From an uncultured Gammaproteobacteria bacterium (lineage in GTDB: Bacteria > Pseudomonadota > Gammaproteobacteria > PS1 > Pseudothioglobaceae), in the NCBI GenBank assembly GCA_913020715.1, contig CAJVZH010000008.1, positions 1-64,000 of the forward strand: a stretch of DNA of 64,000 nucleotides, read 5' to 3'. Positions 37,564 through 43,737 of this stretch are shown here, one piece after another. A program made the translations under genes and the position numbers. Numbering within the stretch: position 1 is the stretch's first letter; each line of letters begins with the position of its first letter. Under the pieces are notes generated by a model, which had not been told where the DNA came from, ran no database searches, and saw only the letters and a list, made by a program, of their open reading frames with translations.

Positions 37564-38757
37564 ATGACTACTGAATTCGAAAACGCCACAATTAAACACA
37601 CTTCGGGTAAACCGAACTCACACAAAGCCGCAATAGAGGTATTGCCTTTAGAGGGTTTCGTCTCTGCGATTGATGAGATATCTCAATGGGATAGCTACTC
37701 ACCGACACCGCTATTTAGCCTTAAAGACCTATCATCAAGCTTATCTCTAAATGAAGTGATGTATAAGGATGAAGGTCCACGATTTGGTCTAGGGAGTTTT
37801 AAGGCACTTGGCGGCTCTTACGCCGCGCTCAAAGTTTTGCAGCGAGAGATATCTAGAGCATTGAATGACATGGTTTCACTTGAAGATATACGCAATGGTA
37901 AATACAGCAAAGAAGCCTCAAAGATTACTTTGGTTTCAGCAACTGATGGCAATCATGGTCGGTCTCTTGCGTGGGGATGTAAGCGCTTCGGTGCGCCATG
38001 CAAAATATATATTCACGCAGAAGTCAGTGAGGGGCGAGCAGAAGCAATGCGTGATTTAGGCGCAGAAGTGATTCGTATAGAGGGCGACTATGACGATTCG
38101 GTAGACCTTGCTCGTTCTGAGGCGGAAGAAAACAATTGGTTTGTTGTATCTGACACTTCTTGGCCTGGATATTTTGAGCCACCTCGTGATGTTATGCACG
38201 GTTATGGGGTGATGATGTACGAGATTAGTGAATCATTAACTCAAATACCAACCCATGTTTTTATTCAAGGGGGATGTGGTGGTTTTGCGGGCTCCGTCTG
38301 TGCCTCTATTAGGCAGATTTGGGGCGATCAAGCGCCAAGAATTGTGATTGTTGAACCCCATATTGCTAACTGCTTGTTTGAGAGTTCAAAGGCAAATAAA
38401 GCACTGTTTGTCAAAATCAACGAGGAAAGCATTATGGCTGGACTGTCTTGTGGCGAGGCATCGGGTTTGGCGTGGGATATCATTGCCGAAGAGGCGAGTG
38501 ATTTTGTCACCATTCCTGAGGATGTCGTAGCTCCAACGGTTCGACTTTTGGCGCGACCTGAAGGCAATGATCCAATTATCGAAGCCGGAGAAAGCGCTGT
38601 GGCTGGTCTTGCAGCACTTATTTGCGTAGCAAAACAAAGCGATATTCGTGAGCAGCTCGGTTTGGATGAATCATCCCGTGTTCTGTTGTTTGGCTCTGAA
38701 GGGGTAACGGATAAGGCAATATTTGATACGATTATGACAGGAGACGACCATGGTTAA
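37564..38757 (+). CDS. Diaminopropionate ammonia-lyase-like PLP enzyme
   Basis: This is a fold-type II PLP enzyme of 397 residues. The cofactor lysine is K80 in GLGSFKALGGSYA, a version typical of diaminopropionate ammonia-lyases, and the phosphate loop is GGCGGFAGS. ATDGNHGRSLAWG and a C-terminal GSEGVTD also fit. Known members convert 2,3-diaminopropionate to pyruvate and two ammonia, and some act on serine or threonine. It opens a tightly packed operon; the M24 gene overlaps its last eight bases. Position suggests an EutB-like role, though the substrate is unproven. Confidence 0.85.
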   Translation: MTTEFENATIKHTSGKPNSHKAAIEVLPLEGFVSAIDEISQWDSYSPTPLFSLKDLSSSLSLNEVMYKDEGPRFGLGSFKALGGSYAALKVLQREISRALNDMVSLEDIRNGKYSKEASKITLVSATDGNHGRSLAWGCKRFGAPCKIYIHAEVSEGRAEAMRDLGAEVIRIEGDYDDSVDLARSEAEENNWFVVSDTSWPGYFEPPRDVMHGYGVMMYEISESLTQIPTHVFIQGGCGGFAGSVCASIRQIWGDQAPRIVIVEPHIANCLFESSKANKALFVKINEESIMAGLSCGEASGLAWDIIAEEASDFVTIPEDVVAPTVRLLARPEGNDPIIEAGESAVAGLAALICVAKQSDIREQLGLDESSRVLLFGSEGVTDKAIFDTIMTGDDHG

Positions 38758-39925
38758 CACCCCTGAACGCGGCTTTCGGGTCTCGGAGTTTGAGGCGCGT
38801 TTACAGCGAGTTCAAAGCCTGATGGCAGCTGATGGTTTGGATGGTATTTTGCTGATGACCGAGCCCGAGGTGCGCTACTTTAGTGGCTTTCACACGCTTT
38901 TTTGGCAAAGCCCCACACGCCCTTGGTTTTTATTTATACCGATTGACGGTAAACCGATAGCTGTCATTCCAGAAATTGGTGCTGCGCTGATGCGCGAAAC
39001 ATGGATTGAAGATATTCGCACATGGAGTGCACCTTCACCGGATGATGATGGCATCAGCTTGTTGTTGGATCTACTCATCCCATTGTCAAAGCGTAGTGCT
39101 CGCTTAGGCATTATGAAAGGACACGAGACTAGCTTGCGCATGCCGCTTGCTGATTACGAGCGATTGATGGCATCTCTTCCAGGTCTCGATTTGGTTGATG
39201 CTACCAGTATGATTCGCAGCTTGAGGATGGTTAAATCAGAAGCTGAAATTGAAAAAATCGCCCATATTTGCACAATAGCCTCAAATGCTTTTGCGCGTGC
39301 AAATGAGATTTTTTATGAAGGTCAGCCTTTTGCAGAAGTGTTTAGAGCTTTTCGAATGGAGTGCTTGGCACAAGGGGCGGACGACGTACCTTATTTGGCT
39401 GGTGGTGCTGACATTGGTGGCTATCAAGACATTATTTCACCACCTTCACAGCGCCTGTTGCAAAAGGGCGATATTTTGATGCTAGACACGGGCGCAACCT
39501 TTGATGGCTATTATTGTGACTTTGATCGTAATTATGCAATAGCAAAAGACGACGAATTGTCCCGCCGAGCGCATGATACGTTATGGCGTGCTACTGAAGC
39601 CGGATTGGCTGTTGCAAAGCCAGGAACAACGTGTCGAGAATTATTTCAAGCAATGGCCAAGGTTATTGCAGAAATGGATTGCCCCGAAGGCGATGTTGGG
39701 CGAATGGGGCATGGACTGGGTATGCAATTGACAGAGCAGCCTTCTCATGCGACTTTTGACGAAACGGTATTAGAGGAAAATATGGTTATTACTTTGGAAC
39801 CTTCCCTAGGCTACGGTGATGGACGTATCATGGTGCACGAAGAAAATATTGTTGTTCAAAATGGTGCACCGCGTCTTCTGTCTAAGCGCGCCGACCAGGT
39901 ATTGCCAATTATTGGTAGGAGTTGA
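38750..39925 (+). CDS. M24-family metallohydrolase (Xaa-Pro peptidase/ectoine hydrolase type)
   Basis: The 391 residues have a creatinase-type N-terminal domain (about 15-150) and a pita-bread catalytic domain. Metal ligands are visible: two aspartates in MLDTGATFDGYYCDFDR, a histidine in GRMGHGLGMQL, and glutamates in ITLEPSLG and MVHEENIVV. M24 members outside peptide cleavage include creatinase and ectoine hydrolase (DoeA/EutD), which open non-peptide C-N bonds. AGGAG lies eight bases before the ATG, inside the preceding gene. Placement with a PLP lyase and a racemase-family gene favours a small-molecule hydrolase. Confidence 0.85.
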   Translation: MVNTPERGFRVSEFEARLQRVQSLMAADGLDGILLMTEPEVRYFSGFHTLFWQSPTRPWFLFIPIDGKPIAVIPEIGAALMRETWIEDIRTWSAPSPDDDGISLLLDLLIPLSKRSARLGIMKGHETSLRMPLADYERLMASLPGLDLVDATSMIRSLRMVKSEAEIEKIAHICTIASNAFARANEIFYEGQPFAEVFRAFRMECLAQGADDVPYLAGGADIGGYQDIISPPSQRLLQKGDILMLDTGATFDGYYCDFDRNYAIAKDDELSRRAHDTLWRATEAGLAVAKPGTTCRELFQAMAKVIAEMDCPEGDVGRMGHGLGMQLTEQPSHATFDETVLEENMVITLEPSLGYGDGRIMVHEENIVVQNGAPRLLSKRADQVLPIIGRS

Positions 39926-39926
39926 T

Positions 39927-40676
39927 ATGAAGTTAGATTTTATAACAGATGGAGGCATCGGTAGTAAAGCTACTTTAGGTTTGATCGTCTTGCAGACCGA
40001 TGAAACCCTTGAATTTGAATTGGGAAAAGTGTTGCCAAAAGATGGTGTGGCGTTGTATCACAGTCGCATTCCAATGTGCAATGAGGTAAACTCAGACACC
40101 CTAAAGCAGATGCAAATTGACATACCGAATTCTGCTGCACTTTTACCGCCTGCACTTGCATTTGATGTCATTGGTTATGGTTGTACCTCTGGGGCTTGTC
40201 TTATTGGTCATGAAGCTGTGCGTGATGCCGTGCAACAGGCTCATCCTGAAGCCCAAGTCACTGATCCCATGAGTGCAATTATTGCGGCATGTGAGGTGCT
40301 GGGTGCTAAAAAACTAGGATTTCTCACGCCTTACGTTGCAGAAGTTTCAGCGCAAATGCGGGAAAAGCTTGAAGCCTCGGGTCACAGCGTTGTGGCTTTT
40401 GCTTCTTTCGAAGAAACGGAAGATAAGGTAGTTGCCAAAATTACTGAAACCTCCATTCTTGAGGCGATTGAATCTGTTGCCGCTCAAGCGGAGTGTGATG
40501 CAGTGGTTGTTTCTTGTACCAGTTTGCGCACAACAGACCTAGTTAAGGAGGCAGAGAGCCGCATAGGAAAGCCCGTTATATCGAGCAACCTAGCCATGGC
40601 GTGGCATATGATGACGCTAGCTAACTTGCCGCAAACTCAAGAACAATTTGGTAAGTTGCACGCGCTTATCACCTAG
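39927..40676 (+). CDS. Asp/Glu racemase-superfamily enzyme (EutA/maleate isomerase-like)
   Basis: The 249-residue protein retains both catalytic cysteines of the superfamily: GYGCTSGACLIG in the first half and VVVSCTSLRTTDL in the second. LGAKKLGFLTPYVAEV is the usual linker-domain start. Relatives are maleate isomerase, arylmalonate decarboxylase and EutA of ectoine utilisation. The start is the ATG at 39927, with TAGGAG five bases upstream and only one base after the M24 stop; a longer upstream frame overlaps the M24 gene and is rejected. Reaction and substrate are unknown. Confidence 0.85.
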   Translation: MKLDFITDGGIGSKATLGLIVLQTDETLEFELGKVLPKDGVALYHSRIPMCNEVNSDTLKQMQIDIPNSAALLPPALAFDVIGYGCTSGACLIGHEAVRDAVQQAHPEAQVTDPMSAIIAACEVLGAKKLGFLTPYVAEVSAQMREKLEASGHSVVAFASFEETEDKVVAKITETSILEAIESVAAQAECDAVVVSCTSLRTTDLVKEAESRIGKPVISSNLAMAWHMMTLANLPQTQEQFGKLHALIT

Positions 40677-40705
40677 CAACAATAACCACCCCAATCTGAA
40701 GAAAA

Positions 40706-41539
40706 ATGACAAAGGTATTAACCAACGAGCAGATTGAGCAATACAATGAAATGGGTTTTATTTCACCGATTCGAGTGATGTCTGAAACCAATGCTCTGGA
40801 AATAAAACACCAGATTGAAGAGGCTGAGAGCAACTTCTCTGACGAAATCCACGCCCAAAGTCGCAATAACCTTCATCTCTGTTTCGTTTTTCTTGACGCA
40901 CTAGCGCATCATGATATAGTAGTCGGCGCCATGGAGGACTTGATGGGCCCGGATCTTGCTTTATGGGCATCGGTGATGTTTATCAAAGAGCCGTCATCTA
41001 ACCACTTTGTGAGTTGGCATCAGGACGGCACGTATATGGGCATGAATAGTAATGATTTTGCCACACCGTGGATTGCGTTGACGCCGAGCACGATTGAAAC
41101 GGGCTGTATGTCGATGATTCCGGGTAGTCACAAACAAAGCATTCAGATCCATGAGGATACTTTTGAGGATAACAACATCCTCACTCGTGGTCAGGAAATT
41201 CAAGACATTAAAGAATCTCAATCCGTTAACTTAATCCTAAATCCGGGTGAGATGTCGATCCACCACGGCGCCATTATTCATGGCTCTAGACCCAATAAAA
41301 GCAATCAAAGACGCATCGGCTTTGCTTTGCAATCCTACATGCCGCCCTCTATCAGTCAGATTGCTGGGCAAAATATGTGGATGCATATTAGTGGCAAGAA
41401 AAGAAAAGATCGTGGTGGTGTTGATCTGGCTAGACCGAAGTTTGATATGGATCCGCAGGGGGTTGAACAGCGCAAGCTTGCAGACGAAAACCTATCCAAT
41501 ATTCTTTACAAAGGCGCGAAAACTAAAAGGAAGTATTAA
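40706..41539 (+). CDS. Phytanoyl-CoA dioxygenase (PhyH)-family 2-oxoglutarate oxygenase
   Basis: The 277 residues carry the Fe(II) facial triad: HxD in SWHQDGTYMG near residues 109-118, and the distal His in HGSRPNKSNQRRIGFAL with the 2-oxoglutarate-binding Arg. GCMSMIPGSHK is a common PhyH motif. PhyH enzymes hydroxylate small molecules, including ectoine (EctD); an HxD rather than HxG/A argues against a halogenase. It lies 29 nt after the racemase gene. Whether it acts before or after the three upstream enzymes is unknown. Confidence 0.87.
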   Translation: MTKVLTNEQIEQYNEMGFISPIRVMSETNALEIKHQIEEAESNFSDEIHAQSRNNLHLCFVFLDALAHHDIVVGAMEDLMGPDLALWASVMFIKEPSSNHFVSWHQDGTYMGMNSNDFATPWIALTPSTIETGCMSMIPGSHKQSIQIHEDTFEDNNILTRGQEIQDIKESQSVNLILNPGEMSIHHGAIIHGSRPNKSNQRRIGFALQSYMPPSISQIAGQNMWMHISGKKRKDRGGVDLARPKFDMDPQGVEQRKLADENLSNILYKGAKTKRKY

Positions 41540-41627
41540 ACAAAAAAACGTTCTATTAATATTGTGTCTTAACATGCTCTGGATGGCTCATAATAACCAA
41601 ATCGATTTAAATAAAGAAATGGTTTAA

Positions 41628-42467
41628 ATGAACAAGAATTACCCTTTGGTCAATGCTGACTGGCTTAATGAAAATATGGGCGATGAAAACCTTATTATTC
41701 TGGATGCAAGCATGGATAAAGTCGCGGGTAAAGAGCCACTGGTTTACGACAACTTCTTCTGTATAAAAGGTGCTCAAAAATGCGATATTGAGCAAGCTTT
41801 TCACGATGCGAGTAGCACCCAACCCCACACCATGCCAACGGCGGAGCAATTCACAGTTGAAGTACAGAAATTAGGCATAGATGCAGAGAGCATTGTTGTT
41901 ATTTACGATAATCAGGGCATTTACTCAGCGCCACGAGCTTGGTGGATGTTTAAGTGCATGGGGCATCAAAAAGTTTATGTGCTTGACGGCGGTTTGCCAG
42001 AATGGCTAGACAGAGGTTTTGATATTGCACAGCAATACAGCCCAATACCTAATGGTAAACTTGTTGGAGCTTGTCAAGTAAACACTGTTTGTGATTCTAG
42101 TTCTGTCTTGAGTGCAATTGCCTCAGGCGATCAAGTCATTGTAGATGCACGAGCAAATGCCCGCTTTATAGGAACAGCACCTGAACCACACGCTGGGTTG
42201 CGTAGTGGCCATATACCCAGTTCTGTTAATATCCCTTTTCTTGATTTATTGCTGGGTTATCGCCTTCAGTCGCCTGAGGTCATTAGAGAGATATTTTCAC
42301 AACGAGGTGCGGTGGGTAAACAACTTATATGTTCGTGTGGATCGGGTATTACAGCTTGTGTGGTTATTTTGGCGGCTAATGTTGTTGGCATAAAAGACCT
42401 CTGTCTTTATGATGGCTCTTGGAGTGAGTGGGGTGGTAACTCTGCACTCCCAATTGAAAAACTATAA
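41628..42467 (+). CDS. 3-mercaptopyruvate/thiosulfate sulfurtransferase (two rhodanese domains)
   Basis: The 279 residues form two rhodanese domains. The C-terminal one has the active-site loop CGSGITA with catalytic Cys237, the form seen in mercaptopyruvate sulfurtransferases (SseA), and ends with LYDGSWSEWG. The N-terminal domain has VVIYDNQGIYSAPRAWWMF. The enzyme moves sulfane sulfur to thiols or cyanide. It starts 88 nt after the dioxygenase, and its stop overlaps the next start as TAATG. It could recycle sulfur from a sulfur-containing substrate of the operon or be unrelated to it. Confidence 0.9.
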   Translation: MNKNYPLVNADWLNENMGDENLIILDASMDKVAGKEPLVYDNFFCIKGAQKCDIEQAFHDASSTQPHTMPTAEQFTVEVQKLGIDAESIVVIYDNQGIYSAPRAWWMFKCMGHQKVYVLDGGLPEWLDRGFDIAQQYSPIPNGKLVGACQVNTVCDSSSVLSAIASGDQVIVDARANARFIGTAPEPHAGLRSGHIPSSVNIPFLDLLLGYRLQSPEVIREIFSQRGAVGKQLICSCGSGITACVVILAANVVGIKDLCLYDGSWSEWGGNSALPIEKL

Positions 42468-43189
42468 TGAAAAAGAAAATCCTTGTGTTCAAACATATGC
42501 CATCGCAAAACCCTGGCATATTTCGTGATTTTGCAGAAGCGCAGGGCGTTAAGTTTATCGAAATTGATTTGCACGCTGGAGATCGAATTCCAGATTTGAA
42601 GGACTTTGATGGGCTTTGGGTGATGGGTGGCTCAATGAATGTTTGGGAAGAAGAAAAATACCCTTGGTTGATTGCCGAAAAACAGGCTATTAGGCATGCA
42701 GTAAATGAACTCAACATGCCTTTTCTGGGTATTTGTCTAGGGCACCAATTACTTGCTGAAGCTATGGGCGGAAAGGTTGATAAGGCCAAGAATTATGAGG
42801 TCGGTTTGTTTAAAGTGAGCCCAACTATTCAAGGTTTGGATCATCAACTGTTGCACAGCATACCAACCCCATCAAACTGGGTAAATGTGCATTTGGCAGA
42901 AGTGGTCCAACCGCCTCAAAATGCTGTGATTTTAGCGACATCCAAACATTGTGATAATCATATAATGCAAATGGGAAAAAACGCCTATTCATGTCAGTTC
43001 CACCCAGAAGTTTGTGAGCATACGGTAGAGGAGTGGATGAAAATTCCTGGCATACCAAAGGCATTGAATGAGTTGCTTGGGGTAGAAGGTTTGGCTTATT
43101 TTAAATCCAGTATTAATGAAAATTTACCTGTTAACAACGCTAATTCGTTAGAGCTGTTTGAAAATTGGTGTAGATTGGTTTTTGATTAA
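42467..43189 (+). CDS. Class I glutamine amidotransferase-like protein
   Basis: This 240-residue stand-alone protein shows the GATase1 nucleophile elbow GICLGHQ (Cys90) and the His in SCQFHPEVCEH. LWVMGGSMNVWEEEKYPWL is typical of GuaA-like GATase domains not attached to a synthetase. Family members hydrolyse glutamine or gamma-glutamyl compounds. No synthetase partner is adjacent, so gamma-glutamyl hydrolase or a partner-dependent amidotransferase is possible. Coupled translation with the sulfurtransferase is implied by a one-base overlap. A second, only distantly similar copy lies at 61.2 kb. Confidence 0.8.
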   Translation: MKKKILVFKHMPSQNPGIFRDFAEAQGVKFIEIDLHAGDRIPDLKDFDGLWVMGGSMNVWEEEKYPWLIAEKQAIRHAVNELNMPFLGICLGHQLLAEAMGGKVDKAKNYEVGLFKVSPTIQGLDHQLLHSIPTPSNWVNVHLAEVVQPPQNAVILATSKHCDNHIMQMGKNAYSCQFHPEVCEHTVEEWMKIPGIPKALNELLGVEGLAYFKSSINENLPVNNANSLELFENWCRLVFD

Positions 43190-43191
43190 TT

Positions 43192-43737
43192 ATGATGACC
43201 TATTCAAATATTCTTAATTATTGGTTTTCAGAAAAAAGCCAACAACATTGGTTTGCTTCGACTCCTGAAGTTGATGCTGAGATTCGAGAAAAGTTTGAGA
43301 GCTTTTGGGAAAGAGCGGCTTCTGGTGAGCTTGATTCTTGGAGTGAAACCCCTGAAGGCAGTTTGGCGCTTATTATTGTATTGGACCAATTTCCGCTTAA
43401 CATGTTTCGTGGCGAAGCCAAGGGTTTTCAAACTGAACAGAAGGCAATTGAAACGACTTTAAAGGCTATAAAAAACGGTTTTTATAAAGATTTAAACCAA
43501 GAGCAGCTTGTATTTTTGTTGATGCCTTTGGTCCACAGTGAAAAACTTGAAGAGCAAGAATTATCAGTCAAGCTTTTTAAATCGCACAACTTAACCGACG
43601 GACTGAGCTTCGCTGAGCACCATAGAGATTTAATTATAGAATTTGGCCGTTTCCCTCATCGTAACGCCATCTTGGGACGTGAAAGCACTCCATTAGAGCT
43701 CGATTATTTGGCTTCGAAGCGTGCGTTTATGGGATGA
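43192..43737 (+). CDS. DUF924-family protein
   Basis: The 181 residues match DUF924: ILNYWFSEKSQQHWF at the start, LALIIVLDQFPLNMFRGE in the middle, and IEFGRFPHRNAILGRESTPLE near the end. The fold is helical and TPR-like; the biochemical role is unknown. It starts two bases after the amidotransferase and is the last gene of the 37.6 kb operon before trmL, which begins 36 nt later on the same strand. Confidence 0.88.
   Translation: MMTYSNILNYWFSEKSQQHWFASTPEVDAEIREKFESFWERAASGELDSWSETPEGSLALIIVLDQFPLNMFRGEAKGFQTEQKAIETTLKAIKNGFYKDLNQEQLVFLLMPLVHSEKLEEQELSVKLFKSHNLTDGLSFAEHHRDLIIEFGRFPHRNAILGRESTPLELDYLASKRAFMG

Follow-up and report, generated by a model that had tools for sequence, protein, structure and literature searches.

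A recurrent gene module with a DpaL-type lyase, an M24 hydrolase and a EutA-like protein, possibly for the catabolism of an ectoine-like solute

Introduction

In a gammaproteobacterial genome of 1.55 Mb (G000), seven closely spaced genes on contig 8, at positions 37564-43737 of the 64,000-nt stretch of DNA that was analysed (the window), raise the question of which of them form a functional unit and what compound that unit would degrade. A preliminary description had taken all seven for one operon acting on a nitrogenous compound and had likened the first three to EutB, EutD (DoeA) and EutA of ectoine utilisation. Here, we report that the conserved entity is a module of three to five genes and that the tail of the stretch is local. 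The core of the module encodes a pyridoxal phosphate (PLP)-dependent lyase of the diaminopropionate ammonia-lyase (DpaL) type, an M24 metallohydrolase and a EutA-like protein. The enzyme families are ordinary, their combination is recurrent and undescribed, and the core is real and widespread. In the literature on diaminopropionate ammonia-lyase, ectoine, M24 enzymes and Roseobacter we found no description of this combination, and no paper in the searchable library tied the M24 sub-family to a pathway. The reading that we prefer, tentatively and with slightly less than even confidence, is that the module serves the catabolism of an imported ectoine-like solute hiding a 2,3-diaminopropionate (or other beta-substituted alanine) backbone.

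The conserved core and its distribution

Coordinates of the open reading frames (ORFs) and profile scores agreed with the preliminary description in placing seven genes of the proposed families on one strand. The first three are as tightly packed as it had stated: the lyase gene (37564-38757, plus strand) overlaps the M24 gene (38750-39925, plus strand) by 8 nt, and a 1-nt gap separates the latter from the EutA-like gene (39927-40676, plus strand). Relatives of the M24 protein were gathered from 398 Pseudomonadota genomes, from plasmids and from a species-level genome collection. The locus set comprised 106 loci, about two of which are duplicates of one another; neighbourhood counts were obtained by tblastn with reference proteins, because gene calls on high-GC loci were noisy. 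In 50 of the 106 loci, the M24 gene lay directly between DpaL and EutA genes. Genes for a DoeB2-like M20 deacylase and for an Lrp regulator, the latter divergent, recurred beside the module in many loci. The hosts are mostly roseobacters and also include vibrios, Granulosicoccaceae and SAR116.

Within the genus of the window genome, an orthologous EutA-like gene was present in three of the 29 genomes listed, the window genome included, and the DpaL-M24-EutA order was constant across the three loci compared (window, G015 and G030). The last four genes of the window stretch vary even among these three. Outside the genus, the PhyH, sulfurtransferase, amidotransferase and DUF924 genes of the window did not travel with DpaL-M24-EutA in the 106 loci; the exception is a distinct PhyH protein, 27-32% identical, in another class of loci. 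Hence the interpretation of the seven genes as a single pathway was rejected: three to five genes are conserved and the tail is reshuffled or replaced in sister genomes. Of the gene order whose co-occurrence in other genomes had been put up for checking, the first three genes recur widely and the full seven are not conserved even in the sisters. The four downstream genes thus appear to be passengers. The distribution of the module is patchy and probably reflects spread by horizontal transfer.

The lyase belongs with DpaL and divides the module into at least two sub-classes

The window lyase scored 462 bits with the diaminopropionate ammonia-lyase model NF006058, well above the cut-off of 276 bits, and 312 bits with the narrower model TIGR03528, below its cut-off of 532 bits. 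The EutB models TIGR02991 and NF005680 gave 50 bits against a cut-off of about 413, and EutB was a distant outlier in the lyase tree. The best solved relatives are the diaminopropionate ammonia-lyases 4d9g and 5ygr. In the numbering of E. coli YgeX, the window protein retains K77, D120 (in the motif TDGNHG) and D189, whereas EutB shares only the PLP lysine. For the E. coli diaminopropionate ammonia-lyase, Lys77 and Asp120 have been proposed to act in catalysis (PMC4000059). The earlier assignment of the enzyme to DpaL and not to EutB is therefore borne out by the profile scores and the tree, in which the module lyases, few members excepted, fell outside the YgeX clade.

Position 120 was occupied by Asp in 58 and by Ala in 27 of the 85 module loci that contain a lyase. 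Where the lyase and M24 genes are contiguous, an M20 gene was present in 27 of 50 Asp-type loci and in none of the 14 Ala-type loci. Therefore the module splits into at least two sub-classes, and the window is of the Asp type. Lyases with AGNHG in place of DGNHG, all annotated as or resembling diaminopropionate ammonia-lyase, were seen in L082, L085, L087, L090, L092, L093, L110, L119, L164, L168, L169, L174, L175 and L176. Possibly, these Ala120 proteins have a different substrate or a strict L-specificity.

The M24 hydrolase is distinct from DoeA/EutD

The M24 protein of the window matches PF00557 and PF01321. On the EutD model TIGR02993 it reached 48 bits, far from the equivalog cut-off of 613 bits. 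The metal ligands are present (D246, D257, H321, E350 and E364), and D-D-H-E-E was found at these positions in 29 of 29 module M24 proteins, the window protein included; the row for L133 was set aside from this comparison, as a different M24 copy had been picked up. The EutD clade, including the window genome's own EutD, has E-P-Y-M-T at the same positions. In a maximum-likelihood tree, which contains several long branches, the module M24 and EutD groups stood apart with support values of 99/93. Score, tree and metal ligands all spoke against an identity as DoeA/EutD, which was rejected; a tight grouping of the M24 and lyase proteins within DoeA and EutB, which the preliminary description had named as grounds for giving up its proposal, was not found, and the core order recurs in many genomes. 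By sequence and predicted structure, we conclude that the window protein is a metal-type hydrolase distinct from DoeA.

The AlphaFold2 model of the protein had a pLDDT of 89.6. Its nearest folds were those of prolidases and of the dipeptidase PepE; DoeA and creatinase ranked lower. A motif in the N-domain, YFSGFxTxFWxSPTRPWF, is strongly conserved across the sub-family, whose members on plasmids are mostly annotated as 'Xaa-Pro peptidase family protein'.

The EutA-like protein and the deacylase

The third core protein scored 181.5 bits with TIGR02990, below the cut-off of 318 bits; the family assignment made earlier is thus upheld in the sense that the protein is, by sequence, of the same wider family as EutA and not the equivalog. 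It aligned with the structures of maleate isomerase and arylmalonate decarboxylase, both Cys regions included, and the first Cys was retained in 80 of 80 EutA-like proteins scanned.

DoeB2 is an N-acetyl-diaminobutanoate deacetylase. The module M20 proteins of G015 and other genomes had DoeB2 as their top model (318 bits, cut-off 550) and also scored on amidohydrolase and carboxypeptidase CpsA models. The preliminary description had noted that the EutE/DoeB partner is missing. This is correct for the window locus, but an M20 gene lies directly upstream of the lyase gene in the sister genome G015 and in many other loci, and the window genome itself carries EutD-EutE and a second M20 elsewhere. 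The latter, on contig 3, is more distant (39% identical to the module M20; 368 bits with DoeB2) and may supply the deacylase step. It adjoins a dimethylglycine-dehydrogenase-like FAD/GcvT protein (contig 3, 60514-64366; L095:7515-11367), followed further along by a DMT-type transporter, an aminotransferase and a dehydrogenase-like gene, apparently another cluster for an amino-acid-type solute.

Transporters beside the module

In six loci, the module is accompanied by a TRAP transporter whose binding protein has UehA and TeaA as its nearest solved relatives. Six other loci have an Ehu-like ABC transporter; tested on L068, its EhuA, EhuC and EhuD subunits scored above the ectoine-transporter equivalog cut-offs and the binding protein just missed. 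We compared the residues that we take to have ligand-site roles in the structures of EhuB, UehA and TeaA. The TRAP binding proteins retain Glu9 (6 of 6), Arg144 and Trp167 (5 of 6 each), and Phe66 is replaced by His in all six. All six Ehu-like binding proteins have lost Glu21, which is retained in a canonical EhuB and in a 31%-identical, EutD-linked EhuB; Arg85 and the aromatic residues are kept. In a third set of loci, including L142, the binding protein and permease belong to a different kind of ABC transporter, polyamine-like by sequence appearance. As judged from these residues and relationships, the ligand of the module transporters is probably zwitterionic and ectoine-like, and need not be ectoine.

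Proposed pathway

In the pathway that we propose, a solute whose diaminopropionate-type backbone is masked by an amide or a ring would first be imported. The M24 metallohydrolase would open the ring or cut the first amide, the DoeB2-like M20 deacylase would strip the remaining acyl group, the EutA-like two-Cys racemase would set the stereochemistry of the alpha-carbon and the DpaL-type lyase would eliminate the beta group to yield pyruvate and ammonia. A diaminopropionate-type amide or cyclic solute, already suggested in the preliminary description, is kept as the best reading. Gene families, conserved order, catalytic residues, the separation from EutD and EutB and the kinship of the linked transporters with ectoine systems are seen in the sequences; the substrate and the order of the steps are our inference. 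By analogy, the scheme would join the way in which ectoine utilisation opens a ring and removes an acyl group with the final M20 and DpaL steps of urate breakdown, and seems to us the most economical one. A precedent is given by E. coli YgeY (M20) and YgeX (DpaL), which turn albizziin, an N-masked diaminopropionate, into pyruvate (PMC12507026). Like these end-steps of anaerobic urate breakdown, the module would couple an M20 hydrolase to a diaminopropionate ammonia-lyase releasing pyruvate and ammonia; unlike them, it has no carbamoyltransferase, hydantoinase or xanthine-dehydrogenase genes, contains the M24 and EutA-like proteins in addition and uses another M20 sub-family.

Several points weigh against this proposal. 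Ala instead of Asp120 in 27 of 85 module lyases would not be expected for a pure DpaL function. The linked transporters differ by lineage (TRAP, Ehu-like ABC or other ABC), so the solute may vary. We know of no 2,3-diaminopropionate-based osmolyte established in seawater and of no proof for the role of EutA even in ectoine catabolism. Moreover, the window locus itself has neither an M20 nor a regulator gene nor an adjacent transporter.

Members of the M24 sub-family were found in 157 of the 299 Rhodobacteraceae genomes sampled, nearly every one of which represents a different genus. Should the module indeed degrade an ectoine-like solute, about half of the sampled genera would use dissolved organic nitrogen by a common route that has escaped notice, and its substrate would hint at an osmolyte that has yet to be measured in seawater. 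In this sense, the module stands for a widespread nutrient pathway still to be solved and not for wholly new biology, and the question is directly testable in culturable roseobacters. The more far-reaching claim, a widespread unrecognised marine pathway for an undescribed ectoine-like solute based on 2,3-diaminopropionate (such as an N-acyl-diaminopropionate or an analogue of ectoine with a five-membered ring), in which a dedicated importer and a metal-dependent equivalent of ectoine hydrolase would take part, is conceivable and on balance unlikely.

Relation to ectoine catabolism and other explanations

The module resembles the EutABCDE/DoeAB systems of Ruegeria, Sinorhizobium and Halomonas in its pita-bread-fold hydrolase, deacylase, PLP fold-type II lyase or dehydratase and EutA-family racemase, in the Lrp/AsnC regulator, in the Ueh- or Ehu-related importers of several lineages and, for one sub-class, in sharing an operon with EutD-EutE. 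It differs from them in that the M24 protein keeps the metal ligands that EutD lacks, the lyase is DpaL instead of EutB, the deacylase is of the M20 DoeB2-like and not of the AstE/AspA type of EutE, EutC is absent and EutD-EutE are separate in the window genome. EutD with EutE/DoeB is absent from the seven-gene stretch of the window. The pair lies on contig 4, where an AstE/AspA-type EutE gene comes after a EutD-like gene scoring 566 bits with TIGR02993, and therefore ectoine hydrolysis has its own genes in this organism. Together with a gene for a PLP enzyme of the Cys/Met-metabolism type they stand in a row at positions 88339-91720 of that contig (L179:7340-10721), the PLP enzyme being an unusual partner for an ectoine hydrolase and deacetylase; this row is separate from the window.

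The main rival of our proposal, which we consider rather unlikely, is that the module forms a side branch of ectoine/5-hydroxyectoine catabolism, in which, after opening by EutD, the DpaL-like lyase and EutA would eliminate the beta-hydroxyl of 3-hydroxy-2,4-diaminobutyrate and the M24 enzyme would trim an acyl isomer. EutABC have been proposed to act on hydroxylated intermediates (PMC13188858). The clearest link of the module to ectoine catabolism is an alphaproteobacterial metagenome-assembled genome (MAG) with a tight, contiguous run of DpaL-M24-EutA-EutD-EutE (L164:7808-13072). The module also stands beside Atf-EutE-EutD in L167 and beside Atf in L143, and M24-EutA adjoins EutD and Atf in L081. 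In the Rhodobacteraceae sample, EutD was found in 201 genomes and EutB in 58; EutD occurred in 134 of the 157 genomes with the M24 protein and in 67 of the 142 others, an odds ratio of 6.5 that ignores shared ancestry, counts being uncorrected for relatedness. The M24 gene lay within 20 kb of EutD in 8 of 92 genomes, with 0.9 expected.

However, when the count was limited to the window-type sub-class (61% identity or more), co-occurrence with EutD did not reach significance (24 of 31, odds ratio 1.8, p 0.23), and the link to ectoine is therefore mainly a property of the sub-class of about 50% identity. Four genomes (G217, G314, G334 and G372) carry the module and have no EutD, and the Ehu-like binding proteins of the module lack Glu21, unlike the canonical and the EutD-linked EhuB. 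Among EutD-positive Rhodobacteraceae, the presence of the module was independent of EutB (p 0.74), and a role as an alternative to EutABC or as a stand-in for EutB was hence rejected.

A second explanation, which appears improbable, is the scavenging of dipeptides or amides of beta-substituted alanines: the M24 enzyme would act as a dipeptidase of the Xaa-Pro type and the M20 enzyme as a carboxypeptidase or aminoacylase, the lyase would turn serine-, cysteine- or diaminopropionate-like products into pyruvate and, in this genus, the sulfurtransferase would handle released sulfur. It would fit the proximity of the M24 model to PepE and prolidases with all metal ligands present, the scores of the M20 proteins on amidohydrolase and CpsA models and the sulfurtransferase gene downstream of the module in all three genus members. 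Against this, the two linked transporter types related to ectoine systems are not of a peptide type, and the sulfurtransferase gene does not accompany the module outside the genus. The M24 protein shares its fold with prolidase/Xaa-Pro dipeptidase and creatinase, and with prolidase also the five metal ligands, but its scores with their NCBIfam equivalog models are far below the cut-offs, it has the strongly conserved N-domain motif of its own and its operon partners are fixed.

A route of the purine or hydantoin type that unmasks a ureido-diaminopropionate, as in the anaerobic urate pathway, is very improbable, for although YgeY and YgeX provide the albizziin precedent and a rhizobial DpaL locus (L190) contains an N-carbamoylase and a Zn-dependent hydrolase, no HyuA, YgeW, SsnA or XdhD is annotated beside the module in the annotated loci or present within the seven-gene stretch, the module M20 is a far better match to DoeB2 than to YgeY and most module lyases lie outside the YgeX clade.

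Downstream genes and related loci

The genus-level neighbours outside the core begin 29 nt after the EutA-like gene with a PhyH-type 2-oxoglutarate dioxygenase (40706-41539, plus strand; PF05721, 91.6 bits). After a further 88 nt follows a rhodanese resembling mercaptopyruvate sulfurtransferase (MST; 41628-42467, plus strand), whose 235.9 bits with NF008557 are just below the cut-off of 250. The MST gene overlaps by 1 nt that of a stand-alone class I glutamine amidotransferase (GATase; 42467-43189, plus strand; PF00117), and a 2-nt gap precedes the gene for a DUF924 protein (43192-43737, plus strand; PF06041, 199 bits). The G+C content of the core genes (0.457-0.474) is slightly above that of the last two genes (0.403-0.405), the window mean being 0.429 with a standard deviation of 0.026 per kb. 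Promoter and terminator scans gave numbers at chance level.

In G015, Lrp and M20 genes precede the lyase gene and a GNAT gene stands where the window has the GATase gene. In G030, a HAD-type ORF takes the PhyH position, a GNAT gene is present, and PhyH and a second M24 gene come after DUF924; this second M24 (L040:14207-15373), directly behind PhyH, is a distant paralogue in which most metal ligands are gone. A blastn comparison of the region upstream of the window lyase revealed no remnant of an M20 or Lrp gene; its sole match was 100 nt of conserved intergenic sequence towards rnfE.

The gammaproteobacterial genome G334, which is without EutD, has two module-type copies about 27 kb apart on contig 1 (~402-410 kb and 429-438 kb), one of them with a UehA-like TRAP transporter. 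The closest M24 protein outside the genus (77%) is encoded in a marine MAG labelled Deltaproteobacteria (L142:1458-13914), where it adjoins the ABC transporter, an M19 dipeptidase, an IMPDH/GMP-reductase-like protein and a second M24. In a second type of locus (L068, L124, L128, L133, L134, L147, L152 and relatives), the M24 gene is found with GntR, EutA2, a dimethylglycine-dehydrogenase-like FAD/GcvT protein and the Ehu-like ABC transporter, often together with a conserved PhyH dioxygenase 73-83% identical to the L134 copy, a composition that hints at an N-methylated substrate.

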